Shown here: one piece after another, positions 621 to 13,824 of the stretch | Layout of the letters: every line of letters begins with the position of its first letter | Numbering within the stretch: the stretch's first letter is position 1 | Origin: Betaproteobacteria bacterium | Lineage (GTDB): Bacteria > Pseudomonadota > Gammaproteobacteria > Burkholderiales > Thiobacteraceae | Reading direction: 5' to 3' | NCBI GenBank assembly: GCA_024641855.1 | Contig: JAHECG010000008.1 | Coordinates: 18,031-52,431 of the forward strand | DNA: 34,401 nucleotides | Made by a program: the position numbers and the translations under genes | The notes under the pieces: generated by a model | Told to the model about the DNA's origin: nothing | What the model saw: the letters and a program-made list of their open reading frames with translations, nothing else | Databases searched by the model: none

Positions 621-688
621 GGTCTCTCTCCTCGTTGATTCGTTAATCGTGAACTTCTTTGCCAGCCTTGCGGCTGCTCCATGACGTC

Positions 689-717
689 AATGTAGTCCAT
701 ACATTTATACATGTCAA
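689..717 (-). promoter_or_regulatory. Putative sigma-70 promoter of recA
   Basis: On the minus strand there is a perfect -35 TTGACA (717-712), a 17-nt spacer (711-695) and a -10 TACATT (694-689). It lies about 70 nt upstream of the recA start codon. The spacer contains two direct copies of the ATACAT hexamer when read on the plus strand (699-704 and 707-712), which could be bound by a regulator. No LexA-type dyad was seen. The call rests on consensus match and position only. Confidence 0.6.
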
Positions 718-735
718 TACTTTTTATTATGTCGG

Positions 736-806
736 TATTTTGTATTGTGTAATATTTTGTATTAGACCTATATTTAGATCGCCTATAATTTACGAAACGA
801 CCGTTT
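736..806 (+). promoter_or_regulatory. Putative promoter and operator repeats of the WYL regulator gene
   Basis: A consensus -10 TATAAT is at 784-789, 32 nt upstream of the start codon, with no good -35 at 16-18 nt. Upstream are two identical direct repeats TATTTTGTATT (736-746 and 753-763, 17-nt period). Just downstream of the -10, over the expected transcription start, is the inverted repeat AAACG-N2-CGTTT (795-806). CapW/BrxR proteins are DNA-binding repressors that commonly act at their own promoters, so these repeats are plausible operator sites. That assignment is inference. Confidence 0.45.
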
Positions 807-821
807 GGCTTGGGGTAAGCA

Positions 822-1712
822 ATGGTTTTAAAAGAAAAAATGCTATTAGACGTTAAGTGGGCGACGCGCCAACGGCTTCAATACATCGAAATCATGGCTT
901 TCTATACTGGCGTCGTTACGCGTAGCGATGTGGCCAAGGCCTTCGGTATCTCCGACGCGGCCGCCACAAAAGATCTGAAGCTTTACAGTGACTTGACGCC
1001 AAACAACCTACTCTACAACCACAGCGTGTTTGGCTTCGTACCCAGTCCCAGCTTTAGCCCGAGCTTTGCCAACCTGGCTCCCGCCGCTGTTTTGCCCGTC
1101 ATCGCCGCCAATCTTGCGGTTTCCGGCGGCCCTTACGGTGCGGACTCCATTTATGGCCTGACCACCGCAGCGCTACCGTTACCGGCGCGCCTACCCAGCC
1201 AGCAAGTACTGGCACAAATCACCCGCGCCATCCGCAGCCACAAGAAACTACGGGTTAGCTATCGCTCACTGTCCAACCGCGACAGCCAGGAAAGGCGCAT
1301 TATCGAACCCCACGCGCTAGTCGATACCGGCATCCGCTGGCATATCCGCGCCTACAGCGAAGACACTTACGACTTCCGCGACTTCGTACTATCGCGTTTT
1401 TCTCATGCCGAATGCCTAGACGAAGCCGCCGAATCCAACGTGCAATACGACGACGACTGGGTAGAAGTAGTCACCCTGCTTCTCGGCCCGCACGCCGACC
1501 TCGACGCGCAAAAACGTGAGAACCTGCTACTGGATTATGGTGCCCAAAATGAATTCATTGAAATCAATGTCCAACGCGCCTTGATTGGCTATGTATTGCA
1601 ACGCCTCCATGTGGACACGACTCAAGACCACTCGATGAACCCCCACGCTTATCAGTTGATGCTACTAAATCGAGCGGAAATAGAACCGTTTGCCGCCTGG
1701 GCATTTACTTAA
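822..1712 (+). CDS. WYL-domain transcriptional regulator, CapW/BrxR-like
   Basis: This 296-residue protein has three parts: an N-terminal winged helix (about 15-75, recognition region near RSDVAKAFGISDAAATKDL), a WYL domain (about 130-200) and a C-terminal WCX-like extension (about 210-296). The WYL part contains VSYRSLSNRD, ERRIIEPHALV, RWHIRAYS and FRDFVLSR, the signature seen in CapW/BrxR regulators that control CBASS, BREX and other anti-phage loci. The ATG at 822 follows GGGGTAAGCA; the in-frame ATG at 840 has a poorer upstream context. No defence effector genes are visible downstream: the next gene is a convergent di-heme cytochrome. It is therefore an orphan here, divergent from recA. 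Its ligand and target are unknown. Confidence 0.85.
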   Translation: MVLKEKMLLDVKWATRQRLQYIEIMAFYTGVVTRSDVAKAFGISDAAATKDLKLYSDLTPNNLLYNHSVFGFVPSPSFSPSFANLAPAAVLPVIAANLAVSGGPYGADSIYGLTTAALPLPARLPSQQVLAQITRAIRSHKKLRVSYRSLSNRDSQERRIIEPHALVDTGIRWHIRAYSEDTYDFRDFVLSRFSHAECLDEAAESNVQYDDDWVEVVTLLLGPHADLDAQKRENLLLDYGAQNEFIEINVQRALIGYVLQRLHVDTTQDHSMNPHAYQLMLLNRAEIEPFAAWAFT

Positions 1713-1752
1713 AACTGTATCGATATAACGAATCATTACGGCTAACAGAAGC

Positions 1753-1791
1753 AAAAAAAATCCCCCGGCAAGATTCACCCTGCCGAGGGAT
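1753..1791 (-). terminator. Rho-independent terminator of the di-heme cytochrome gene
   Basis: Read on the minus strand, a strong stem (TCCCTCGGCA pairing with TGCCGGGGGA, one internal mismatch) is followed directly by a run of eight T. It sits about 40 nt past the stop codon of the minus-strand cytochrome gene and about 40 nt past the stop of the convergent WYL gene. The A-run on its 5' side in plus orientation gives no U-tract for the plus strand, so it serves the minus strand. Confidence 0.85.
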
Positions 1792-1831
1792 TCATGACAC
1801 GCACTTTCCTTATTACGCTAAAGCAATTGCT

Positions 1832-3394
1832 TTATAGCGAACGCAGGAAATCTAAAATCGCTTGCTGATCATTTTTCTTCAAGCTGTTAAAGCGGTTAAC
1901 CACTTGATTGGCCTCAGAAGGTGGGTATCCGCCTTTTGGACAACCCACATTCTCGGTGCATCCTGCAGAAGAAGCATGCTCCTGAATAGCCACCAACAAA
2001 TCATCGGTACGACCATCATGTAGGAAGAACTTGCGCTGTCCTACGCCCCACAAAGGTTGGGAACGGAACATATCGCCTTTCGCGGCACCTTGCGTAATGT
2101 TATCCGCCAGATTTTTCCCCATATGATGAGTCAACAGATCCGAATAAAGATTTGCCGTAATGCCGCTTAATGCTGCGCTCTTAATAGAAGTCGCGGTTTG
2201 CATTTGCGGCGTGTGGCATGCAGCACAACCAATCCCTAGATTATCCGCGCCGGTACCAAAAAGCTCTTTCCCTCGCTGTGCGCTGGCGGTCAAAGCGACT
2301 GGTTGCGGTGCGTCCAAGAAACGCATAAAGAGAGAGAACTCCATCCAGTCAGGCAAAATGTGCAGTGGATTGTTGAAGCCGTCATTCTCAGAATCATCGG
2401 TATCGGTTCTAGTAATGTCGTTAGGATGCGGTTTTTGCGGCCCATTGCACAGCGGATTTTCTTCGGTCGCTTGCGGGAACAGCTCATTGGTCACACCCAT
2501 CTCGACGTTATATGCTTCACCCGAGAAAATTGTGAGCGACTTGTTCTGCGCTTTCCAGCCAAATCGTGTGATCGTACCGTCATTCCCACTCGTATTCGGC
2601 ATACCTGTAATGCCATTTGCGGCTCTATAGGCTGCGGTTGCATCATGCCGAGCAAGAATTTCGATATCTTGAATGGAATCGATCAAGCCCAAGCCAAAAA
2701 GCTGCAACGGGATACGGAAAATCACGTTTTTATTCTTCAGCTGAGTCTCAAAATCAGGCTGCTTCAACACATCAATTGTGCAACCTGGAATCGTCGGATC
2801 ATCCGTTCGACCAACCACCGTAAAGAGTTGATGCACACCACCATCCGGCGTCCCATCCGGCTTTAAAATAAAGCGCGCTTCACGTATCGGCCCATATTGC
2901 TTAATGAACGAAGGCGTTACGTTTGTCTGGCCCTTACGGTGCGGAATCAAATCAAACATGGGATTTTCTGGTGGACGATGTTGCGCCACTGGATCTTGCG
3001 GGTTCGGCACCAAAAAACCACCAGATCCACCCAACGCAGGCTGACTATGGCAGATCGTACATTGATCGCCATTGAAGCGCGCGCCAAGTCCAGCAGAATT
3101 GGTAATCGTATTTAGCAGCGGATCTTGCCCGTTCGGCGTACCCGGGATGAGTTGAGCGCAGCCTTCACACGTGGACTCAAGCTCAGTCGCACGAAATTGA
3201 CCCTCTCTGAATAGCCCCAACTCATTGATTTGTATGTTTGGGAGGGGATCACCCGCACCCGGAGCACCGCCCCGAACACCCGGATCTTGTGGCCCGCTTC
3301 GAGCTGGATAATTTCCTGATTGGCCGGCCAGCGCCAATCCCGACATGCATAAACATGCCGATAATAAAATTGCTAAAGTAAGCTTGTTTTTCAT
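1832..3394 (-). CDS. Secreted di-heme c-type cytochrome, DHOR/DUF1111-like putative peroxidase or oxidoreductase
   Basis: The 520-residue protein begins with a signal peptide whose likely cleavage site follows ALA at residue 23, so it should be periplasmic. Two c-type heme sites are visible: CTICH at 112-116, after GLGARFNGD, and CAACH at 390-394. An additional CxxC (76-79) lacks the histidine and is not a heme site. The sequence FFLHDGR near 456-462 is the conserved C-terminal loop of the cytochrome c peroxidase/MauG/DHOR group. The GLG.RFNG..C..CH..PA.GG pattern points to the di-heme oxidoreductase family (COG3488) rather than classical CcpA. Its substrate cannot be told. The start codon follows GGGAGGAT at good spacing. 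It is monocistronic, with a terminator downstream and a long AT-rich gap upstream. Confidence 0.85.
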   Translation of the reverse strand: MKNKLTLAILLSACLCMSGLALAGQSGNYPARSGPQDPGVRGGAPGAGDPLPNIQINELGLFREGQFRATELESTCEGCAQLIPGTPNGQDPLLNTITNSAGLGARFNGDQCTICHSQPALGGSGGFLVPNPQDPVAQHRPPENPMFDLIPHRKGQTNVTPSFIKQYGPIREARFILKPDGTPDGGVHQLFTVVGRTDDPTIPGCTIDVLKQPDFETQLKNKNVIFRIPLQLFGLGLIDSIQDIEILARHDATAAYRAANGITGMPNTSGNDGTITRFGWKAQNKSLTIFSGEAYNVEMGVTNELFPQATEENPLCNGPQKPHPNDITRTDTDDSENDGFNNPLHILPDWMEFSLFMRFLDAPQPVALTASAQRGKELFGTGADNLGIGCAACHTPQMQTATSIKSAALSGITANLYSDLLTHHMGKNLADNITQGAAKGDMFRSQPLWGVGQRKFFLHDGRTDDLLVAIQEHASSAGCTENVGCPKGGYPPSEANQVVNRFNSLKKNDQQAILDFLRSL

Positions 3395-3977
3395 TATTAC
3401 ATCCTCCCTAAATTATTAATAAAACAGCAAATATCTCCTTTTCTAGCACTGCAACTACTACAACACCGGTGTAAAACCTGCGCTGCAGTATCAGGTAAGA
3501 CTGCCCACCACTATTCTTGTTTTAAAAGAGCAACCCAAATTGGAACATTGATATATTCTAGAATATAGAATAAGTACATCTCATGAATTAAGCATACACC
3601 AGTTTTTTAAAAAAACGTATTTTGTTACTTATTTTGCAGGCTATGTAGAATTAGAAGAACCTAATTAAGTATTCAATATAATAAATCAACATACTGTAAG
3701 CATTATATTTATGCTTATAAATTAACTCCAAAAGCGCTAAGGATTGCAACTCCGTCGAAGCGTAACCATCAAGAAAATTGCCAGCGACGCCGCCATGACG
3801 GCTACGAATAGCGCACCTGAAAACTACTTAAAATCTAAGATTGCGTAAAATTTGGGTATCGAGAGAGGAAACGCTGGCCGATGAATGGCCTTTTACCCAG
3901 GATGAAAGCCGTGCAGACTTACTTCATACAAAAAAATAGGGGCTTGCGCCCCATTTTTTCGCTATACCAACAGCGCC
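3395..3977. other. 583-bp AT-rich intergenic region with palindromes, no gene seen
   Basis: No convincing coding region is present; the short open frames lack family resemblance and ribosome-binding sites. The region holds a perfect 16-bp palindrome TATATTCTAGAATATA (3552-3567), a perfect 10-bp palindrome ACACCGGTGT (3463-3472), and an inverted repeat TAAGCAT-N7-ATGCTTA (3697-3717). At its far end is the terminator of the ankyrin gene. It presumably carries the promoter of the minus-strand cytochrome gene, but I could not find a good -35/-10 pair or a sigma-54 box. Confidence 0.6.
3929..3960 (-). terminator. Rho-independent terminator of the ankyrin gene
   Basis: The stem GGGGC-TTGC-GCCCC (3939-3952) is flanked by an A-run on the left and a T-run on the right in plus orientation. 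It can therefore terminate in both directions. It lies 18 nt past the stop codon of the minus-strand ankyrin gene, which is its likely client. Confidence 0.85.
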
Positions 3978-4553
3978 TTAATGCTGATCTTTTTTCAAGA
4001 ACGTCACCACATTCGAATTCGGCGCATTGCGTGAGCCACAACCGCCACCATCCTCGCCAAGTTCGACCATCGATTCTGCTTCGTGCAGTAAATTGATCAC
4101 ATCCACGTAATCTTTGTCCTTCACCATCATCAAGGCTGTGCGACCGCCCTCATTGCGTGCTTTCGGATCTACGCCTGCGTTGAGCAACACGATCACCACG
4201 CCCGCCTCGCCAGCACCCGCCGCCAACATCAAGGGACGAATATCGTAGAAAATTTTAGTTTCGATATCGGCGCCGGCATCGATCAGTGCTTGCACGACAT
4301 CCGGAAAGCCGCGATCCAAATCCGCGTTATAAACCGCACACATCAAAGCGTTGTATTCACGCTCATCGCGTGCCGCCACATTAGCACCGGCACCGATCAA
4401 CGCGTTCACTTGATCCAGGTGACCGAGACTGGCAGCCAGCATCAGCGGCGTCATGCCACCTTCACCGACGGCATTAACATCAGCGCCAGGCAAGGCGCTA
4501 TTGAGTTGGGATAAATCACCATTTTTAACAGCATCGAATAGGGCTTGAGACAT
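3978..4553 (-). CDS. Ankyrin-repeat protein
   Basis: This 191-residue protein has four to five ankyrin repeats covering roughly residues 3-155. Repeat signatures include GMTPLMLAASLGHLDQVNAL, YNALMCAVYNADL, IRPLMLAAGAGEAGVVIVLL and GRTALMMVKDKDYVDVINLL. The C-terminal tail contains a short GEDGGGCGS stretch. No signal peptide or membrane segment is visible, so it is probably cytoplasmic and mediates protein-protein contacts; its partner is unknown. I chose the ATG at 4553 because GGAGG lies 6 nt upstream. A GTG immediately before it would leave only 3 nt. A 13-bp palindrome GGGGAATTTCCCC (4589-4601) sits 36 nt upstream of the start. The gene appears to be monocistronic. Confidence 0.85.
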   Translation of the reverse strand: MSQALFDAVKNGDLSQLNSALPGADVNAVGEGGMTPLMLAASLGHLDQVNALIGAGANVAARDEREYNALMCAVYNADLDRGFPDVVQALIDAGADIETKIFYDIRPLMLAAGAGEAGVVIVLLNAGVDPKARNEGGRTALMMVKDKDYVDVINLLHEAESMVELGEDGGGCGSRNAPNSNVVTFLKKDQH

Positions 4554-4754
4554 CACGAACCTCCACAGGTAAATCCATTCAACAAATAGGGGAATTTCCC
4601 CGTAATTTCATGATTTTAGCAAAGTCTAATAAAGCCTGCTCGGCATCTTTCCGCTAAGCTTCTTAGAGGGGCTGTTTTGTTTAAAATGGTGCTTGAAAAG
4701 TAGCCCAAAGGCCTCAAGTAAATACCTGTCTTTAAGCCAACCCGCGCTTTCAGG

Positions 4755-4781
4755 TATAATGTAGCCATCTGATTTTAGGAG
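4755..4781 (+). promoter_or_regulatory. Putative -10 element and ribosome-binding site of fmdB
   Basis: A consensus TATAAT at 4755-4760 in the context CAGGTATAAT is followed by the Shine-Dalgarno AGGAG at 4777-4781, 6 nt before the ATG. The -35 region (TTAAGC at 17-nt spacing) is weak. The same CAGGTATAAT string recurs ahead of aspS at 5754-5763. Confidence 0.55.
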
Positions 4782-4787
4782 CAAATC

Positions 4788-5048
4788 ATGCCAATTTATG
4801 AATATCGCTGCGATTCCTGCGGTTTTCAAAAAGAGTTTTTGCAAAAAATGAGCGACGCAACGCTCACGACTTGCCCCGAATGCAAAAAAGAAACGTTTTC
4901 CAAGATGCTCTCTGCGGCCGGCTTCCAATTAAAGGGCAGCGGCTGGTATGCGACCGACTTTAAAGGCGGTGCCAAGCCCAAGGAAGAGAAAAAGGAAGCA
5001 GCGCCTGCCTGCGGCACGGGCGCTTGCCCTGCCTGCCCCAGCAGTTAA
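4788..5048 (+). CDS. FmdB-family zinc-ribbon protein
   Basis: The 86-residue protein starts MPIYEYRC and has two CxxC knuckles, C8-x2-C11 and C29-x2-C32, which define the FmdB/CxxC_CXXC_SSSS regulatory zinc-ribbon family. The region around 50-57 (LKGSGWYATD) is typical of the family, and the tail is rich in Lys/Glu and Cys/Ala. The biochemical role of the family is poorly known; a regulatory part was proposed from the FmdB founder. It opens the fmdB-DUF502-aspS gene string, an order common in betaproteobacteria. The start is fixed by AGGAG 6 nt upstream. Confidence 0.92.
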   Translation: MPIYEYRCDSCGFQKEFLQKMSDATLTTCPECKKETFSKMLSAAGFQLKGSGWYATDFKGGAKPKEEKKEAAPACGTGACPACPSS

Positions 5049-5113
5049 CCTCGCCTTGATCGTCAACCTCCGTTTTCCCGTCAGCGCGTAACCGTCCGCC
5101 AAAAGCCTATTCC

Positions 5114-5713
5114 ATGAAAAAATACTTTCTTACCGGCTTACTGATTTGGGTACCGCTGGCAGCAACTGTCTGGGTGCTGAATTTATTGATTAGTACGCTG
5201 GATCAATCGTTGCTGCTGTTGCCGACTCAATTTCGCCCTGAAGCATTGTTCGGCATGCGCATTCCGGGATTGGGCGCAATTGTCACCTTACTGGTTATTC
5301 TCATTACGGGTGTACTCGCCGCAAATTACTTCGGTCGCCAATTATTGGCCTTGTGGGAAAATATTCTCGCTCGGATACCCGTCGTCAAATCAATTTACAA
5401 CAGTGTCAAACAAGTCAGCGACACGTTATTTTCTGGTTCCGGCGATGCTTTTCGCAAAGTGCTGCTCGTGCGCTACCCGCACCCAGACGCTTGGTCGCTC
5501 GCGTTCCAAACCAATGTTCCAACGATGGTCAGCGATACCCTCAGCGAAGACTATGTCGCGGTGTTCATCCCCACCACGCCCAGCCCGGTAAATGGGTTTT
5601 ATTTCTTCGTGAAGAAGAGCGAAACTATCGAACTCAACCTGAATGTCGATCAAGCGCTGAAATACATCGTCTCCATGGGTGTTGCGACGCAAGAAAAGCC
5701 ACGCGGCCAATAG
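5114..5713 (+). CDS. DUF502 inner-membrane protein
   Basis: This 199-residue protein has two predicted membrane segments (about 5-28 and 52-72). They are followed by the family hallmark RIPVVKSIYNSVKQVSDTL (88-106), so it belongs to the DUF502 family of inner-membrane proteins of unknown function. The soluble C-terminal part contains a short beta-rich region ending in PSPVNGFYFFV. It lies between fmdB and aspS in the order usual for betaproteobacteria. The start codon has no strong Shine-Dalgarno sequence; MKKYFLTG is the standard N-terminus of the family, which supports the choice. A small hairpin GCCTAA-TGGC-TTAGGC (5713-5728) begins at the stop codon. Confidence 0.9.
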   Translation: MKKYFLTGLLIWVPLAATVWVLNLLISTLDQSLLLLPTQFRPEALFGMRIPGLGAIVTLLVILITGVLAANYFGRQLLALWENILARIPVVKSIYNSVKQVSDTLFSGSGDAFRKVLLVRYPHPDAWSLAFQTNVPTMVSDTLSEDYVAVFIPTTPSPVNGFYFFVKKSETIELNLNVDQALKYIVSMGVATQEKPRGQ

Positions 5714-5753
5714 CCTAATGGCTTAGGCAATCGCCTCATTTAATAGGCAATTC

Positions 5754-5763
5754 CAGGTATAAT
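5754..5763 (+). promoter_or_regulatory. Putative -10 element upstream of aspS
   Basis: The string CAGGTATAAT is identical to the one ahead of fmdB and has a consensus -10 TATAAT at 5758-5763, 48 nt before the aspS start codon. No good -35 is present. It suggests that aspS has its own promoter in addition to readthrough from fmdB-DUF502. Confidence 0.45.
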
Positions 5764-5811
5764 TCACGTTTTTTCCGCGCCCGCTCGGGGCGAACACAAG
5801 GATATTTTGCA

Positions 5812-7596
5812 ATGCGTAGCCATCACTGCGGCGCGGTCAATCGCGACCATCTCTCTCAAACTGTCACGCTGTGCGGCTGGGTGCATCGCCGTCGCGACCA
5901 TGGCGGGGTTATCTTCATTGATCTGCGCGACCGCTCTGGCCTGGTTCAGATCGTGTGCAATCCCGATCAAGCCGAGACTTTCGCCAACGCTGAAAAAATT
6001 CGTAACGAATTCGTGCTAAAAGTCACCGGCATCGTGCGCGACCGACCAGAAGGCACCGTCAATCCGAACCTGCCCAGCGGAGAAATCGAAGTCATCGCCA
6101 ACGATGTAGAAATTCTCAATACCTCGGCCCCACTGCCGTTCCAACTGGACGAAGAGCCGACAGAGAACGTGCGCCTGACCTATCGCTATCTGGATCTGCG
6201 GCGCGAGCCGATGCAAAAGAACATGGCCCTGCGCTACCGCGTGGCCAAGACCATGCGCGACTATCTCGACACCCATCAGTTCATGGAGATTGAGACGCCC
6301 ATGCTCACCCGCTCCACCCCAGAAGGTGCGCGCGACTATCTGGTGCCGTCACGCGTGCACCCGAACATGTTCTACGCCTTGCCGCAGTCGCCGCAGTTGT
6401 TCAAACAATTGCTCATGGTGTCCGGTTACGAGCGCTACTTCCAGATCACCAAATGCTTCCGCGACGAAGACCTTAGAGCCGACCGCCAGCCTGAATTCAC
6501 CCAGGTGGATTTGGAGATGTCATTCGTCAATGAAGAAGACGTGATGAGCTTGGTCGAAGGCATGATCCGCGAAACGTTCAAGAAAGTGATGAACGTCGAT
6601 CTACCCAATCCTTTTCCCCGCATGAGCTGGCACGAGGCCATGAGCAAGTACGGTTCCGACAAACCGGATATGCGCGTCAATCTGGAAATCACCGAACTCA
6701 CGGACGCCATGAAGGACGTGGACTTCAAGGTGTTCTCCGGCCCCGCCAATGCGGTGGGTGGTCGCGTCGCAGCGCTACTTATTCCAGGTGGTGGCGAGAA
6801 GCTATCACGTGGCGAAATCGACGCTGCAACCGAGTTCGTAAAAATCTACGGCGCCAAGGGCCTGGCTTGGATCAAGGTGAATGAACAAGCCAAAGGCCGT
6901 GACGGCCTGCAATCGCCCATCGTGAAAAATATTCATGACGCAGCTCTCAACACCATTCTGGAACGCACCAGCGCGCAAGACGGCGATGTGCTGTTCTTCG
7001 GTGCGGACAAAGCCAAGATCGTCAACGACGCGCTGGGTGCGCTACGCGCCAAGATTGGTCACGAGAAAGGCTACGCCGTCAACGAATGGAAACCGCTGTG
7101 GGTAGTGGATTTCCCCGCCTTTGAATACGACGAAGACAACAAGCGCTGGGTAGCATTGCATCACCCCTTCACCGCGCCGGCGATCGGCCACGAGGATTTA
7201 CTCAGCACCGACCCCGGCAATTGCCTGTCGCGCGCCTACGATATGGTGCTCAACGGCTGGGAAGTCGGCGGTGGCTCGATCCGTATTCATCGCGAAGACA
7301 TGCAAGCGAAAGTGTTCACCGCACTCGGCATCGGTGAAGAAGAAGCGCGCAATAAATTCGGCTTCCTGCTCGACGCGTTGCAATTCGGCGCGCCACCGCA
7401 CGGTGGTTTGGCGTTTGGTTTAGATCGTTTGGTAACGCTGATGGCGGGTGCGGAATCAATTCGCGATGTCATCGCCTTCCCCAAAACGCAGCGTGCCAAC
7501 GATCTGATGACGCAAGCGCCAAACAGCGTAGATGAAAAGCAGTTGAAAGAATTGCATATTCGATTGCGGCAGGTTGAAGTAAAGCCGCAGGCATAA
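5812..7596 (+). CDS. aspS: Aspartyl-tRNA synthetase (probably non-discriminating, Asp/Asn type)
   Basis: AspRS charges tRNA with aspartate in the cytoplasm. The 594-residue length and start MRSHHCG are usual for the bacterial type. An N-terminal OB-fold anticodon domain (about 1-110, with [15 protein letters not shown]) is followed by the class II catalytic core. The core carries motif 2 near 217 ([16 protein letters not shown]) and motif 3 near 530 ([10 protein letters not shown]), with a GAD insertion between them. The residue after RRRD is His and the later segment is PSGEIEV. In studied AspRS these His and Gly positions go with relaxed specificity, which also charges tRNA-Asn for the GatCAB amidotransferase. 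That specificity call is inference; no gatCAB genes are in the window. AAGGA lies about 16 nt upstream of the chosen ATG. Confidence 0.97.
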
Positions 7597-7604
7597 AAAA
7601 CCTT

Positions 7605-7676
7605 TTAACGCAAAGACGCAAAGGTCGCAAAGAATACAAGGATTTTCCTTTGCGTTCTTAGCGGCCTTTGCGTTTA
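7605..7676. repeat. Imperfect palindromic repeat of CGCAAAG units
   Basis: The left arm (7605-7633) reads as tandem CGCAAAG-type units beginning TTAACGCAAAGACGCAAAGG. The right arm (7644-7676) is its imperfect inverse, CTTTGCG units ending TTTGCGTTTAA. It lies between aspS and the SMR gene and resembles, in design, the elements at 17329-17460 and 34296-34401. It is probably a dispersed palindromic intergenic repeat that folds into a long hairpin. Confidence 0.75.
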
Positions 7677-7721
7677 ATGGCTATTGATTTTCTTCTTAAA
7701 ATTTGTGACGAACCACTCAAA

Positions 7722-8036
7722 ATGGAATGGCTCTATCTCTTCTCTGCGGGCATCTTCGAAATCGTGTGGGCCGTGAGCCAGAAATATTCGGATGGCTTCT
7801 CGCGCCCGCTACCCACCGCCATCACCTTAGTCGCCGCCACCATCAGCTTCGTGTTGCTGGGCTTGGCCATGAAACACATTCACCTCGGTACGGCTTACGC
7901 CATTTGGACCGGCATCGGCATTGTCGGTACAGCGATACTTGGCGTGTTGCTATTCGCAGAACCGGTCAACCTGACGCGCTTGTTTTTCTTAGGCTTGATT
8001 CTCGTCGGCATCGTCGGCTTGAAGCTGAGTTACTGA
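7722..8036 (+). CDS. gdx: Small multidrug resistance family transporter, guanidinium exporter (Gdx/SugE) type
   Basis: This 104-residue protein has four hydrophobic segments and the SMR fold. Residues known to shape the Gdx guanidinium site fall at the expected numbers when the ATG at 7722 is used: E13, W16, S42, Y59 and W62 (segments FEIVWA and GTAYAIWTGIG). This supports the Gdx/SugE subgroup over EmrE-like multidrug pumps. The exchange is proton-coupled export across the inner membrane, inferred from the family. The open frame extends upstream to 7668 inside the repeat, but those extra residues are not family-like. The Shine-Dalgarno is weak, and I see no convincing guanidine riboswitch upstream. 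It sits between aspS and nudB, ending 3 nt before the nudB ATG, next to a palindromic repeat. Confidence 0.88.
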   Translation: MEWLYLFSAGIFEIVWAVSQKYSDGFSRPLPTAITLVAATISFVLLGLAMKHIHLGTAYAIWTGIGIVGTAILGVLLFAEPVNLTRLFFLGLILVGIVGLKLSY

Positions 8037-9318: not shown

Positions 9319-10470
9319 ATGATTAAGTATCTCGGTGGCAATCAACTCACTCTACTGCAAAGCGGTGCCGAATATTTTCCCGCGTTGGAAGCCGCTATCG
9401 ATCAAGCGCAACACCACGTCTATTTAGAAAGTTATATTTTTGCGCATGATGCGGCAGGTCAACGCATCGGCGCAGCGTTAGTGCGCGCAGCGCAACGCGG
9501 TGTAGCATGCCATTTAGTCATCGATGGTTATGGCGCACAAGACTACCCGGCGATTGCACTAGAGGCATTACGCAAAGCGGGCGTGTCAGCACTGGTTTAT
9601 CGCCCGCACATCTCCCCCTGGCGCTTTCCGCGCCAACATCTGCGCCGAATGCACCGCAAACTCGCGGTCATTGATCATCTTAATGCCTTTGTGGGCGGCA
9701 TCAATATCATCGCCGACCATCCCGATATCCCACCGCAGTTCGATTATGCCGTGCGTGTCGAGGGGCCTTTGGTGAGAATTATTCTGCATGAAATGCAAAA
9801 TCTGCACGCCCGCTTGTCATGGGCACAACTGCGACGACCGCGTGAAATAAAAACCAAACCAATACCCGATCCAACACAAGCCGGCACCATGCGCGCCGCC
9901 TTTGTGCTGCGCTCTAGTTTGCGGCATCGCCGAGATATCGAACGCGCTTACTTGCGCGCTATTGGAAAAGCGCGCAAAGAAATCATTTTGGCCAATCCTT
10001 ATTTTTTGCCAGGACGCCGTTTTCGCAAAGCGTTGCTGCATGCGGCTTCGCGCGGGGTTACAGTAAAGCTGTTGTTACAAGGTCGCGTTGAATTTCGTTT
10101 AGTGCAATACGCCAGCCGGGCACTCTATAAACAACTCCTCTCCGCAGGCATTGAAATCTACGAATATCAGCCCAGTATTCTGCATGCCAAGGTCGCAGTC
10201 ATCGATGGCTGCTGGGCGACAGTCGGATCATCCAACATCGACCCCACCAGTTTATTTCTATCGCGCGAAGGCAATATTGTTGCGTTTGATCAACGCTTCG
10301 CTACCGCGCTCCATGCCAGCTTGAATACGGCCATCAGCAACGATGCACGACAAATCACCTCCGATTACTTGCACAACGACTTATGGCTAAATCGTCTATT
10401 ACAGTGGCTTTCCTATAGCGGGGTGCGTCGCTTGGCCGGTTGGGTTGGGTACGGACGTGAAATGGAGTAA
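9319..10470 (+). CDS. clsB: Cardiolipin synthase B (phospholipase D superfamily)
   Basis: The 383-residue protein has two phospholipase D HKD motifs: H112-x-K114-x4-D119 (HRKLAVID, followed by GGIN) and H289-x-K291-x4-D296 (HAKVAVID, followed by GSSN). It lacks the N-terminal membrane helices of ClsA, which matches ClsB. ClsB-type enzymes make cardiolipin from phosphatidylglycerol or use phosphatidylethanolamine as donor, at the inner membrane. The HKD1 region carries an arginine-rich stretch (PRQHLRRMHRK) suited to anionic lipid. It ends the plus-strand run that began at fmdB. A TATACT-like element (about 9304-9309) could give it its own promoter. Confidence 0.93.
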   Translation: MIKYLGGNQLTLLQSGAEYFPALEAAIDQAQHHVYLESYIFAHDAAGQRIGAALVRAAQRGVACHLVIDGYGAQDYPAIALEALRKAGVSALVYRPHISPWRFPRQHLRRMHRKLAVIDHLNAFVGGINIIADHPDIPPQFDYAVRVEGPLVRIILHEMQNLHARLSWAQLRRPREIKTKPIPDPTQAGTMRAAFVLRSSLRHRRDIERAYLRAIGKARKEIILANPYFLPGRRFRKALLHAASRGVTVKLLLQGRVEFRLVQYASRALYKQLLSAGIEIYEYQPSILHAKVAVIDGCWATVGSSNIDPTSLFLSREGNIVAFDQRFATALHASLNTAISNDARQITSDYLHNDLWLNRLLQWLSYSGVRRLAGWVGYGREME

Positions 10471-10607
10471 CGCTCAGAACTCTTCCCGCGCAGTCCTTAA
10501 CACATCCTTAACATTTCATTAGCATAATGTCGGTTTTTTTTACACTTTAAAAATAATTACAATAGCATGTCATTGAAAAATCTAAATTTTTTAGGCTGAT
10601 AGCATAT

Positions 10608-10623
10608 CGGCACGATACTTGCA
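10608..10623 (+). promoter_or_regulatory. Sigma-54 (RpoN) promoter of the second di-heme cytochrome
   Basis: The sequence CGGCACG-N4-TTGCA has the invariant GG (10609-10610) and GC (10621-10622) spaced by exactly 10 nt. It matches the consensus TGGCACG-N4-TTGC at all but the first base. It lies about 90 nt upstream of the ATG, in a 240-bp AT-rich gap. Three TAGCAT hexamers upstream (10520-10525, 10563-10568, 10600-10605) might mark an activator site, but this is speculative. Confidence 0.75.
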
Positions 10624-10710
10624 TATAAAAAAACGATCCAACGTATAACAACCAAAGCACGGGAGAATGCGTTGATCAGAAACAATCCACTTTAAAGGGG
10701 AACACTTATT

Positions 10711-12192
10711 ATGAAATTGCTAAAACTAAGTATCGCGTGCGCTTCGGTGCTCGCATCATCGCTGGCGACAGCTAGCGATGTGGATATCGGCGCACTGTAT
10801 CGCGGCGCTTTCCGTATTGATCAAGCCAATGTATCGAGCATGTCACGTGACGAAGTCCGTCTAGCCGGTATGCGCATGTTCACCAATCCATTCTTAAAAG
10901 AAGAGGGTTACGGTGACGGTAACCACGCCCTGCCGAGCCGTACGCCTGGCAACCATGAAGGCGAGCGCGGCACCCTGCAGAACAACGGTACCTTCCAACG
11001 CATCAATGGCCTCGACGCACAGACCTGTTTGGAATGCCACAGCATCATCAGCCGTCGTAAAGTGCCGATGACCTTCGGTATCGGCGGTGTCGGTGGCGTA
11101 AACAATACCGTGCTCGGCGCAGGTGGCGCAACGTTTGTTGACCTCACCACTGCCGACAAAGAGCACAACATCGATGGCCGCGTCATCAACCCACCATTCA
11201 TCTTTGGTGCCGGTGGTGTAGAGCAAGTCGCCAATGAAATGACCATTGAATTGAATGCCCTGCTGCATGCGACTGCGCCTGGCACCACCAAAGCGTTGTC
11301 GGCTAAAGGCATTACATTCGGTTCCGTAACCCGCAATGCAGACGGCAGCATTCAGACCGATGCCAACGGCAATGCAGTCGGCGTAGTCGGTGTGTTTGAT
11401 CCGCGCCCAATCGTCAGCGGCGCAGCAAATACCGACTTCCTGACTGTCGCTCCATTTGGACGCAAAGGCAACCAGAAATCGACTCGCACGTTCGATATCG
11501 GCGCGTTGTCATTCCACTTCGGTATGCAAGTTGATCCAGGCGATCCAGACGGTGACGGCGTATCCAACGAAGTTACGCAAGGCGAGTTGTCTGTATTGAG
11601 CATCTTCGTCGGCACAGCGCAAGTTCCGTTCCAGACGGAAGTTAAAGGTGCCGCGGTACAAGGCTTCAAAGTCATGAACGAAGTGGGTTGCACTGCATGC
11701 CACGTTCCATCCATGGAAACCAAATCCAAGAATCACGGATTCCGTTTCCCAGAAGTGGGCAACGATCCGCTGGCGAACGTGTTCTACACAGTTGATTTGA
11801 CCAAGTCGCCGATGAACTTCGAGAAAAACAAACAAGGTGGCGTTACTGTCCCATTGTTTGCTGACTTGAAGCGTCACTTCATGGGCCCATCGCTGGCAGA
11901 GTTCAATGGTGATGCGATGTTCACCACAATGCGTCTGTGGGGTGTTGCCGATACGGCACCTTACCTGCATGATGGTCGCGCGCTAACCATTCGTGACGCA
12001 ATCCGTTTACATGGTGCAGATGCCACCAGTGAAGCCAACCCAGCCGTGTCCGCCTTCCTGGCACGTAGCGCTGCGGATCAGGATGCAGTACTGGCCTTCC
12101 TGGACACCCTGCGTTCACCCGATGGCACCTTCCCTGAGTTGCTCGGCGACTTAGCGAAGAAAGTGGCACATCAACAAGGCGTAGCTCACTAA
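10711..12192 (+). CDS. Secreted di-heme c-type cytochrome (CcpA/MauG/DHOR superfamily)
   Basis: This 493-residue protein has a signal peptide (cleavage probably after ATA at about 21) and two c-type heme sites, CLECH at 106-110 and CTACH at 327-331. The C-terminal TAPYLHDGRA (415-424) is the conserved loop of di-heme peroxidases and MauG-like proteins. A DPDGDGVSNE segment (278-287) resembles a calcium-binding loop. Long glycine-rich stretches lie between the hemes. It should act in the periplasm; peroxidase or oxidoreductase activity is a family inference and the substrate is unknown. It is similar in plan but not in detail to the cytochrome at 1832-3394. It has AAGGGG upstream of its ATG, a sigma-54 promoter, and hairpins downstream, so it is a single-gene unit. 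Confidence 0.85.
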   Translation: MKLLKLSIACASVLASSLATASDVDIGALYRGAFRIDQANVSSMSRDEVRLAGMRMFTNPFLKEEGYGDGNHALPSRTPGNHEGERGTLQNNGTFQRINGLDAQTCLECHSIISRRKVPMTFGIGGVGGVNNTVLGAGGATFVDLTTADKEHNIDGRVINPPFIFGAGGVEQVANEMTIELNALLHATAPGTTKALSAKGITFGSVTRNADGSIQTDANGNAVGVVGVFDPRPIVSGAANTDFLTVAPFGRKGNQKSTRTFDIGALSFHFGMQVDPGDPDGDGVSNEVTQGELSVLSIFVGTAQVPFQTEVKGAAVQGFKVMNEVGCTACHVPSMETKSKNHGFRFPEVGNDPLANVFYTVDLTKSPMNFEKNKQGGVTVPLFADLKRHFMGPSLAEFNGDAMFTTMRLWGVADTAPYLHDGRALTIRDAIRLHGADATSEANPAVSAFLARSAADQDAVLAFLDTLRSPDGTFPELLGDLAKKVAHQQGVAH

Positions 12193-12205
12193 AAGCACGT
12201 GATAT

Positions 12206-12280
12206 GGCGGCGGGAGTTTTTCTCTCCCGACCGCCGTTAGTATTCAAATAGTCATTGCCTTGTCCATCGTGACGGACAAG
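12206..12280 (+). other. Two hairpins downstream of the di-heme cytochrome
   Basis: Hairpin one (12206-12235) pairs GGCGG-c-GGGAG with CTCCC-ga-CCGCC but has no T-run after it. Hairpin two (12259-12280) pairs CTTGTCC with GGACAAG around 8 nt. Both precede the true terminator and may protect the 3' end of the message. Confidence 0.5.
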
Positions 12281-12282
12281 TT

Positions 12283-12319
12283 AAAAAAGGCAGTTGGTAA
12301 ATCACCAGACTGCCTTTTT
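12283..12319. terminator. Strong bidirectional Rho-independent terminator
   Basis: GGCAGT-TGGT pairs with ACCA-G-ACTGCC around a short loop, flanked by six A on the left and five T plus further T-rich sequence on the right. It separates the plus-strand di-heme cytochrome from the convergent minus-strand small membrane protein, and can serve both. Confidence 0.9.
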
Positions 12320-12375
12320 CTTTTTTGTTGCCCGCATTGCTACGCGCGTGATTGCATTACTTCTACACTGTATTT

Positions 12376-12585
12376 TTAAGCGTTGTGTGGCTGGCGTGCC
12401 AAAATCATCACTGCCAGGAAATGAATTAAACCGATAATCAACCCCATCCACCCCGCCACCATCCACCAGGTATCCGGCCCAAACGTGCGCGCCAAACCAT
12501 CGCGCAACAAATAACCCGCACCGAGTGAAATCCCTAACCACAACAATAGTGCCATGCTTGCACGTCTTATCGCCGAAGTCTTCAT
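12376..12585 (-). CDS. Small membrane protein of unknown function, two transmembrane segments
   Basis: This 69-residue protein starts MKTSAIRRASMALLLWLGIS. It has two hydrophobic stretches (about 9-27 and 40-60) separated by LRDGLARTFGPDTWW, with a short polar tail. I recognise no family. The ATG at 12585 is chosen because GGGGAGAG lies 5 nt upstream; a longer open frame begins at 12639 but that start has no such signal and the extra residues are highly charged. It lies downstream of the M42-like peptidase gene on the same strand, with a 69-bp gap. Confidence 0.65.
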   Translation of the reverse strand: MKTSAIRRASMALLLWLGISLGAGYLLRDGLARTFGPDTWWMVAGWMGLIIGLIHFLAVMILARQPHNA

Positions 12586-12654
12586 AACAGCTCTCCCCTT
12601 TCTTATTTTATATTCAATCATTTTATGGGCTGAACCCACATTTATCCAACCCAG

Positions 12655-13824
12655 CTACAACTGTTTCTGATATTCACTATAATTTTTTTGCAAACGCGCC
12701 GTCACCTGACGCCAAGGGTTGTACCAAGAAAGCTGGCTTTGCATCAGCGCAAGACACAATTGGCGCAGCCCTTCCACGTCACCCAAATGCACAAACTCCG
12801 GCGCCGGCCCGAGATGCCCACGACAATCCGGCCCGCCTTCCAGCCCCTGGTTGTGATAATTACCCAGCGGAACTGCCAGCGCAATGGTGGGAAATCCATA
12901 GGCCGTAGCCGCAGATCCCTCACAACTGCCGCCATCCATAATGCGACGTTGGTGTTGCTTTGGCAGCACCTGCTCAGCCAGCTCTGTCAGCACTTGCGAA
13001 TAATCGGCATGGAATGGCGTACGACGATCACCCAAGCGCACGATCGGCCCTTTGCCGACAACCGCACCGGGCAAAGTGCGCGAAGCTTCCAAACTCACGC
13101 AAATAACCGCTCTTGACGCTGCTTGTAACCAACCCAGTTCAAAATGGCCCACTGCGCCAACCAAACCCACTTCTTCCGCTCGCGTCAGTAAGCCAATAAA
13201 TGGTGGGCGATTTTTCTGGCTGCATTTAGCGAAGACTTCCAATGCCGTAGCGACAATGCAAAACACGCCAACCAAATCGTCTGCAGCTTTGGTATACAGT
13301 TTCGCGCCGCTCTTCCAAACTGGTTTACGAAATTGAAAGCCGCCGAACAAACTCTTTGCTCCAGGCCGCAATACAGCGACCTGCGACATTTTTACCTGCA
13401 CCTCAGCGGTACCAATGGCGTAACCCTTGGGATGCAAGGTCACTTTGCGCAGCACCCCCTCACCCGCCCAACCCTCAGCCGTAGACAACCAGACCCGACT
13501 ACCGCTCAGCAACTTGGTGGGAGAACCGCCATGCCAACGAACACGCAACACATTAGGCGCCAGCCAACGCACACCATGAAAACCCGGATGATTCATATGC
13601 GCAATGAAAACGCGCACGGGTTCGGGACTCGGTGCATGCAACAACCGTTGAAAATCGGTTTTCGATGTAGCGCCGACCACAATATTGCCAATGGGGTCGA
13701 TAAAATACGGGATGGCATTCTGATCCAACAATGCCGTCACCCACTGAATCACGTGGTGTTCGCGAAACGGCGCCGTCGGTTGAGTCAGCAGTGACGTCAA
13801 TAACGATTGGTGTTCCGAACGCAT
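12655..13824 (-). CDS. M42/M28-like metallopeptidase (FrvX-type aminopeptidase family)
   Basis: The 389-residue protein follows the plan of dinuclear-zinc aminopeptidases of clan MH. The candidate ligands are H76 in AHMNHPG, D182/D183 in AADDLVG, E217-E218 in TRAEEVGLVGA (general base and bridging region), E246 in SLEASRT, and H324 in NYHNQ. Two departures from typical M42 are visible: the HxD motif is HMN, and the usual Asp near 246 is Glu. Other segments (GGSCEGSAATAYGFPTIAL) fit the family. No signal peptide is seen, so it is probably cytoplasmic. Whether it is an active peptidase is uncertain because of the HMN change. The Shine-Dalgarno is weak. Confidence 0.7.
   Translation of the reverse strand: MRSEHQSLLTSLLTQPTAPFREHHVIQWVTALLDQNAIPYFIDPIGNIVVGATSKTDFQRLLHAPSPEPVRVFIAHMNHPGFHGVRWLAPNVLRVRWHGGSPTKLLSGSRVWLSTAEGWAGEGVLRKVTLHPKGYAIGTAEVQVKMSQVAVLRPGAKSLFGGFQFRKPVWKSGAKLYTKAADDLVGVFCIVATALEVFAKCSQKNRPPFIGLLTRAEEVGLVGAVGHFELGWLQAASRAVICVSLEASRTLPGAVVGKGPIVRLGDRRTPFHADYSQVLTELAEQVLPKQHQRRIMDGGSCEGSAATAYGFPTIALAVPLGNYHNQGLEGGPDCRGHLGPAPEFVHLGDVEGLRQLCLALMQSQLSWYNPWRQVTARLQKNYSEYQKQL

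Follow-up and report, generated by a model that had tools for sequence, protein, structure and literature searches.

A predicted PrsR-type sigma-54 promoter upstream of a di-heme oxidoreductase gene in a betaproteobacterium

The closest described relatives of the promoter discussed here stand before genes for PEP-CTERM proteins. In the description by Haft 2006 (PMC1569441), a 17-nt motif 1 ending in TTTACA precedes 99 of 167 proteobacterial PEP-CTERM genes. It is followed after a spacer of 62.8 ± 10.6 nt (range 32–92) by a sigma-54 motif 2, which lies on average ~71 nt (SD 38.5) before the start codon. Motif 1 is assigned to PrsR, and a few motif sites are also found before other genes, whose names are absent from the section on the motif. 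The pepA gene of Aquincola tertiaricarbonis (PMC9850573) encodes a PEP-CTERM floc protein and is described as RpoN-dependent; its start was mapped, an enhancer is predicted upstream of its -24/-12 motif, and PrsK/PrsR is the suspected regulator. Two further systems involve heme proteins. Mesorhizobium loti ccpR, a gene of the di-heme peroxidase superfamily, is described as controlled by RpoN (PMC3538637), which sets a precedent for a di-heme peroxidase relative under RpoN. In Methylococcus capsulatus, the c-type cytochrome genes of the MCA0424 operon follow a putative sigma-54 promoter (PMC4831470).

The window (the whole stretch of 34,401 nt analysed) contains a gene for a di-heme oxidoreductase of the DHOR family that shares features with these systems. 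With the PrsK/PrsR system, it has in common the 17-nt motif ending in TTTACA, the spacer, the -24/-12 element, the distance to the start codon and a long region upstream of a single-gene unit, and PrsK, PrsR and PrsT are encoded in the genome. It differs in its product, a di-heme oxidoreductase that lacks a PEP-CTERM signal. The -24/-12 motif, the predicted upstream enhancer and the (here predicted) dependence on RpoN are shared with pepA, which was examined by experiment, whereas the window promoter is computational only. Compared to ccpR, which encodes a COG1858 protein and is described together with NifA, the window gene belongs to the DHOR family and carries a PrsR-like operator. The MCA0424 operon encodes multiheme cytochromes behind a promoter that is predicted only, and the accessible part of that report mentions no PrsR-type site. 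A PrsR-controlled di-heme gene was not encountered among the titles and abstract openings listed for PrsR/PEP-CTERM with cytochrome and for MauG/PEP-CTERM/di-heme/sigma-54. Judged from its sequence context, the DHOR gene is probably a member of a PrsK/PrsR–RpoN surface regulon, a reading to which we assign a probability of roughly 0.8.

The di-heme gene and its sigma-54 element

The DHOR gene (10711–12192, + strand) encodes a protein of 493 aa with an N terminus that resembles a signal peptide by eye. It is preceded by a Shine-Dalgarno-like AAGGGG (10695–10700, +, by eye). The heme-binding motifs CLECH (residues 106–110, 11026–11040, +) and CTACH (residues 327–331, 11689–11703, +) keep both cysteines and the histidine in 14 of 14 aligned sequences. 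The Pfam family DHOR (PF06537) matches residues 298–466 with 40 bits against a cut-off of 22. The protein thus resembles the family in its two CxxCH motifs and in the C-terminal part of the profile (positions 345–498 of 499), but differs from it in that the rest of the protein is unmatched. DHOR is the sole Pfam family at E≤0.001 and at E≤0.01; CCP_MauG (PF03150) gives no match, nor does any NCBIfam family at E≤0.001. The structure model is poor (pLDDT 55.6), and its top PDB matches are di-heme peroxidases, none of them at E≤0.001. The sequence-only reading had called the protein a MauG/CcpA-type cytochrome. The two-heme motifs stand, whereas the family label was loose, as Pfam gives DHOR and not CCP_MauG. 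The protein ends in AKKVAHQQGVAH without a PEP-CTERM tail or a PF07589 match. Downstream of the gene, two strong hairpins are found within 12195–12330, the second of which is followed by a T-tract and forms a terminator-like structure (12283–12326, +). The fold of 12195–12340 reaches -56.4 kcal/mol (z -6.1).

Upstream, CGGCACGATACTTGCA at 10608–10623 (+) forms a -24/-12 element, CGGCACG-N4-TTGCA, in which GG (10609–10610) and GC (10621–10622) are separated by ten nucleotides. It differs in one position from the consensus TGGCACGN4TTGCW and is the sole site with at most one mismatch in the window. The element begins 103 nt and ends 87 nt before the ATG at 10711, and transcription would start at 10634 (+), as placed by element spacing 12 nt past the C of the -12 part. 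A single such site per 34 kb is ordinary, as 54 of 100 whole-window shuffles hold at least one. Inside the 240-bp intergenic region, in contrast, the score of the site is reached in only 2 of 20000 dinucleotide shuffles.

The source genome is a draft of 3.19 Mb (91.7% complete) with one match to rpoN. Sigma-54 sites with at most one mismatch number 67, compared to 30 for a reversed control pattern; a crude gene caller assigns 30 of them to intergenic regions and 37 to open frames. By an approximate weight matrix based on the published consensus, the window site is fifth among the 67. When 20 proteins downstream of intergenic sites were compared with NCBIfam, nifH, an Rrf2 regulator, YbiB (DNA-binding), a TorF porin, FliE, FlgB, GlnL/NtrB and the XrtA-type glycosyltransferase EpsB_2 were recognized above the cut-off. 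Matches below the cut-off comprise NarK-, FliK-, LapG-, NirB-, peroxiredoxin-, PorB- and c-di-GMP phosphodiesterase-like proteins, and five of the 20 have no listed NCBIfam family. Many of these proteins are typical RpoN targets, and the motif is therefore read in this organism. The predicted sigma-54 promoter before the DHOR gene looks real on these grounds. The GG-N10-GC element of the sequence-only reading is confirmed, and its proposal that RpoN controls the di-heme gene is well supported by the strength of the element, the presence of rpoN and the typical RpoN targets.

Motif 1 and candidate activators

The predicted PrsR enhancer site, TGTCGGTTTTTTTTACA at 10528–10544 (+), was identified by sequence match and is the only place in the window with at most two mismatches to TGTCRGNNTTTTTTACA. 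The spacer to the sigma-54 element is 62 or 63 nt, depending on whether the motif is counted as 17 or 16 nt, and its centre lies ~98 nt upstream of the predicted start. The site agrees with PMC1569441 in the TTTACA end, the spacer and the 87 nt to the ATG, the comparison being with the description there and not with the logo. TTTACA alone is not rare in an AT-rich stretch, where it occurs at the right spacing in 1664 of 20000 shuffles.

The resemblance extends beyond this hexamer. A PEP-CTERM gene elsewhere in the genome (L119), recognized by the tail of its protein, has a motif-1 site that is identical to the window site in 14 of 17 positions. Used as a lone query, the L119 site finds 11 places with at least 14 of 17 positions in 1.23 Mb, compared to seven in 3.70 Mb of shuffled sequence. 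The window site is among the 11 (score 14), and three others (one on the - strand of the window, L139 and L137) lie outside a motif-1/sigma-54 promoter arrangement. Because the first motif-1 pattern was based on both L119 and the window site, the window's score of 15/15 with it is partly circular. A matrix was then trained solely on four sites, which belong to three PEP-CTERM genes confirmed by PF07589; the L169 sites among them had been found with this first pattern. The window motif scores 22.2 bits with this matrix. In the ~1.34 Mb scanned (~42% of the 3.19 Mb genome), 11 matches reach at least 19 bits, four of them being the training sites. Nine of the 11 are followed at a spacing of 30–95 by a sigma-54 score of at least 9, and the remaining two are upstream tandem copies; the same score is found at 98 of 4000 random positions and behind one of 27 weaker motif-1 matches. 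Ranked among the matrix matches, the window site comes fourth for motif 1 and first for sigma-54.

Both elements could in principle have arisen by chance in an AT-rich intergenic region. About half of the whole-window shuffles hold a sigma-54 site of this quality, and 11 of 12 orthologues of the gene are without it, which would fit such a coincidence. Local shuffles, however, reproduce the sigma-54 score only at the frequency given above, and a match to the L119 site in at least 14 of 17 positions at an allowed spacing in 14 of 20000 cases, which makes chance an extremely improbable explanation.

A search for sigma-54 activation domains gave 13 matches in the genome, six strong (E below 1e-60) and seven weak; these counts are lower bounds, as the genome is 91.7% complete. 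The strong matches are PrsR, NtrC, PilR, an AtoC/FlbD-like protein near fliE and two proteins without an assigned identity. The PrsR gene adjoins the genes for PrsK and PrsT, with profile scores of 732 bits for PrsR, 802 bits for PrsT and 445 bits for PrsK (over the part of the protein read), and EpsB_2 reaches 554 bits. The exosortase XrtA was not found among ten proteins scanned, nine of them from the PrsKR contig. NtrC is encoded behind GlnL and cut by the contig end. PilS and PilR are encoded in the window ~19 kb downstream of the DHOR gene; they were considered as its cognate regulator and set aside, as there is no evidence for the pairing. None of the 13 matches adjoins the DHOR gene. 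A dedicated activator, as the sequence-only reading had implied, is not supported by this arrangement and by an upstream operator that matches the shared PrsR-type motif 1. The same reading had taken three TAGCAT hexamers (10520, 10563 and 10600) for the activator site. This also finds no support: some hexamer with at least three different letters occurs three times in 22.7% of 1000 region shuffles (TAGCAT itself in none), so that a triple repeat is not above chance, and TAGCAT is found on the same strand in 0 of 29 other intergenic sigma-54 regions. Its reverse complement occurs once each in two of the 29.

A sigma-54 promoter could also be served by PilR, NtrC, the AtoC/FlbD-like protein, one of the two unassigned proteins or a NifA that escaped detection in the draft. 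These or similar regulators are encoded in the genome, the PilS/PilR pair even in the window, and M. loti ccpR is described as NifA–RpoN regulated (PMC3538637). The genome has NifA-type sites, yet none of the six strong enhancer-binding proteins of the draft was identified as NifA. The nifH gene and its Rrf2 neighbour (L001, contig C3) each have a sigma-54 site and a paired TGT-N10-ACA upstream, which served as a positive control for enhancer detection. The 200 nt upstream of the DHOR gene, in contrast to the two sites at nifH, contain no TGT-N10-ACA, and motif 1 fits PrsR in both sequence and spacing. Another activator is hence considered unlikely, and PrsR is the preferred candidate. A site resembling that of IHF with at most one mismatch is absent upstream of the DHOR gene, and a perfect one is present at its orthologue L042.

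Upstream of motif 1, at 10496–10524, the 11-bp spaced repeats CTTAACA-CATC-CTTAACA-TTTC-ATTAGCA resemble OmpR/PhoB sites. Similar direct repeats are seen by eye upstream of a pstS-like gene of the source genome. In an alternative to RpoN control, the main promoter would be of the sigma-70 type, perhaps with an OmpR/PhoB-like site at 10496–10513, and the -24/-12 match would be minor or accidental. Two sigma-70-like sites with 9 of 12 positions lie upstream of the DHOR gene on the + strand, among six in 10300–12700 compared to 2.1 ± 1.6 in shuffles, and in one orthologue (L039) TAGAAT follows a repeat that makes a good Pho-box-like match. The Pho-box score in the window is not above that of shuffles (p 0.206), on which a Pho box before the DHOR gene was rejected, and the sigma-54 site is a strong one that shuffles rarely produce. 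A sigma-70 main promoter is accordingly rated very unlikely next to the PrsR/RpoN reading. An FNR-like TTGATCAGAAACAA at 10672–10685 (one mismatch, 1.75% of 2000 shuffles) was set aside, as it lies downstream of the predicted start.

Genes behind the two-part promoter

Nine motif-1/sigma-54 promoters, including that of the window DHOR gene, were found in the sequence scanned. Three precede PEP-CTERM proteins (L119, and L169 twice). At L121:15782–19999, each gene of a two-partner secretion pair has its own promoter; the pair consists of a ShlB/FhaC-type TpsB-like transporter and an ESPR-bearing TpsA-like protein that is cut by the stretch end. At L087 (contig C76), one promoter leads to the gene of a di-heme CCP_MauG protein (~720 aa), behind which a second DHOR protein is encoded. 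The divergent promoter leads to a secreted-looking protein with a TIG match and a weak, below-cut-off match to DUF4331, provided that its start is the assumed ATG at 3400, as the open frame continues upstream across the motif. The promoter at L171 precedes a protein whose N terminus is twin-arginine-like and for which no family is listed. All nine products look exported, several of them by their N terminus by eye and with assumed start codons. At one more PEP-CTERM gene (L075/L128), a strong sigma-54 site is combined with a motif 1 that is only weak. EpsB_2 has its own sigma-54 site, yet its region is absent from the motif-1 matches listed.

Motif 1 occurs three times in the L087 locus (674–7857), where sigma-54 sites lie on either side of the divergent arrangement. 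A gene for a TPR protein lies beside that for the TIG/DUF4331-like protein, in the direction opposite to the MauG and DHOR genes. The window encodes a second DHOR protein (1832–3394, -) that is 54% identical to the DHOR protein of contig C76; the scan lists no motif-1/sigma-54 promoter before it.

Both elements of the window promoter, their spacing, the occurrence of the same pair before other surface genes and the presence of rpoN, prsK, prsR, prsT and epsB are computed results. In the proposed circuit, 10711–12192 would form a single-gene transcription unit that is read by RpoN-RNA polymerase from 10608–10623. The PEP-CTERM response regulator PrsR, bound at motif 1 (10528–10544), would be the most likely activator and would be switched on by the sensor kinase PrsK. 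PrsR binding, activation, the signal and the transcription start are what we infer from this arrangement. The upstream DNA carries the predicted PEP-CTERM switch, and the two-heme enzyme is therefore probably made with surface proteins and without a regulator of its own. It would be secreted, and its regulon, concerned with the surface or biofilm, would also yield the PEP-CTERM proteins, the two-partner secretion pair and the products of the second di-heme locus (MauG/DHOR). The enzyme may oxidize a surface substrate or remove peroxide. In a broader and rather doubtful reading, PrsK/PrsR would be a general surface-state regulator beyond its role for PEP-CTERM genes, and its regulon would include secreted di-heme enzymes (the window DHOR protein and those of the MauG-DHOR locus on contig C76) that act on exported proteins or matrix polymers by oxidative modification or cross-linking.

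The proposed membership turns a vague promoter guess into a named circuit with a testable operator sequence, that is, the TGTCRGNNTTTTTTACA pattern, and links secreted two-heme enzymes without an assigned function to the export of surface proteins. The PrsK-on state, which is thought to accompany aggregation and exopolysaccharide, would be the condition in which to seek the substrates of the enzyme.

Orthologues and distribution

The DHOR gene has no close orthologue in its genus mates, and the type of its promoter is that of a regulon of the host itself. At E≤1e-20, it is matched in none of seven genus mates and in neither of two further family members. One genus mate, G005, has a weak C-terminal match, and no motif-1/sigma-54 promoter was found within 20 kb around this DHOR relative. 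Matches occur in three of 399 genomes of the order (E≤1e-30) and in six of 369 genomes of the class sample (E≤1e-60), the own genome being included in both counts. An orthologue in a Sulfuriflexus MAG (L036) has 59% identity in the best segment, and G529 (74%), G641 (65%) and G736 belong to one genus, probably Sulfuriflexus. More distant copies (42–50%) were seen in the orders to which G763 and G593 belong, in eight of 296 and one of three genomes, respectively.

In L036, the DHOR gene follows a purD-like gene (by eye) and not ClsB. ClsB was found in six of the seven genus mates; a further match, L109 (36% identity, a second copy in G003), was left out. In four mates (L103, L105, L106 and L107), a small reading frame and an M42 peptidase gene come directly after ClsB with no cytochrome between, and the same frame and peptidase gene lie beyond the cytochrome gene in the source genome. 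The regions downstream of ClsB in these four contain no strong sigma-54 site (best 4.0–9.0). Gene and promoter region were therefore either acquired together in this lineage or lost together from the mates. Two mates (L104 and L108) have other sequence after ClsB.

The sequence-only reading had expected GG and GC to be kept among orthologous promoters and had taken their loss as speaking against it. They are not kept: the strong sigma-54 site is missing in 11 of 12 orthologues, the closest included, namely in three of the (inferred) Sulfuriflexus group and eight others, with next-best scores of 9.0 (L046) and 8.8 (L040). The exception is L042 from G593, where TGGCGCGACACCTGCT lies 90 nt before the ATG. 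Motif 1 is found in 0 of the 12 (best 8–11 of 17 positions), L042 with its sigma-54 site included. The set of 12 leaves out L037 and L038 (27–29% identity; scanned, no strong sigma-54 site) as well as L043/L044 of G736, which were taken as the same locus as L036. With the sigma-54 site missing from all but one of the 12 orthologues, the promoter is a property of the copy in this lineage and not one of the family as a whole. What its absence elsewhere constrains is how old the promoter is; its type is unaffected.

In the orthologue L039 from G529, a Pho-box-like repeat, CCGTCAC-GCCC-CTGTCAC, followed by TAGAAT, lies ~212 nt before the DHOR start. None of 500 mononucleotide shuffles gave a repeat as good, which suggests that the orthologue in G529 may be under phosphate control.
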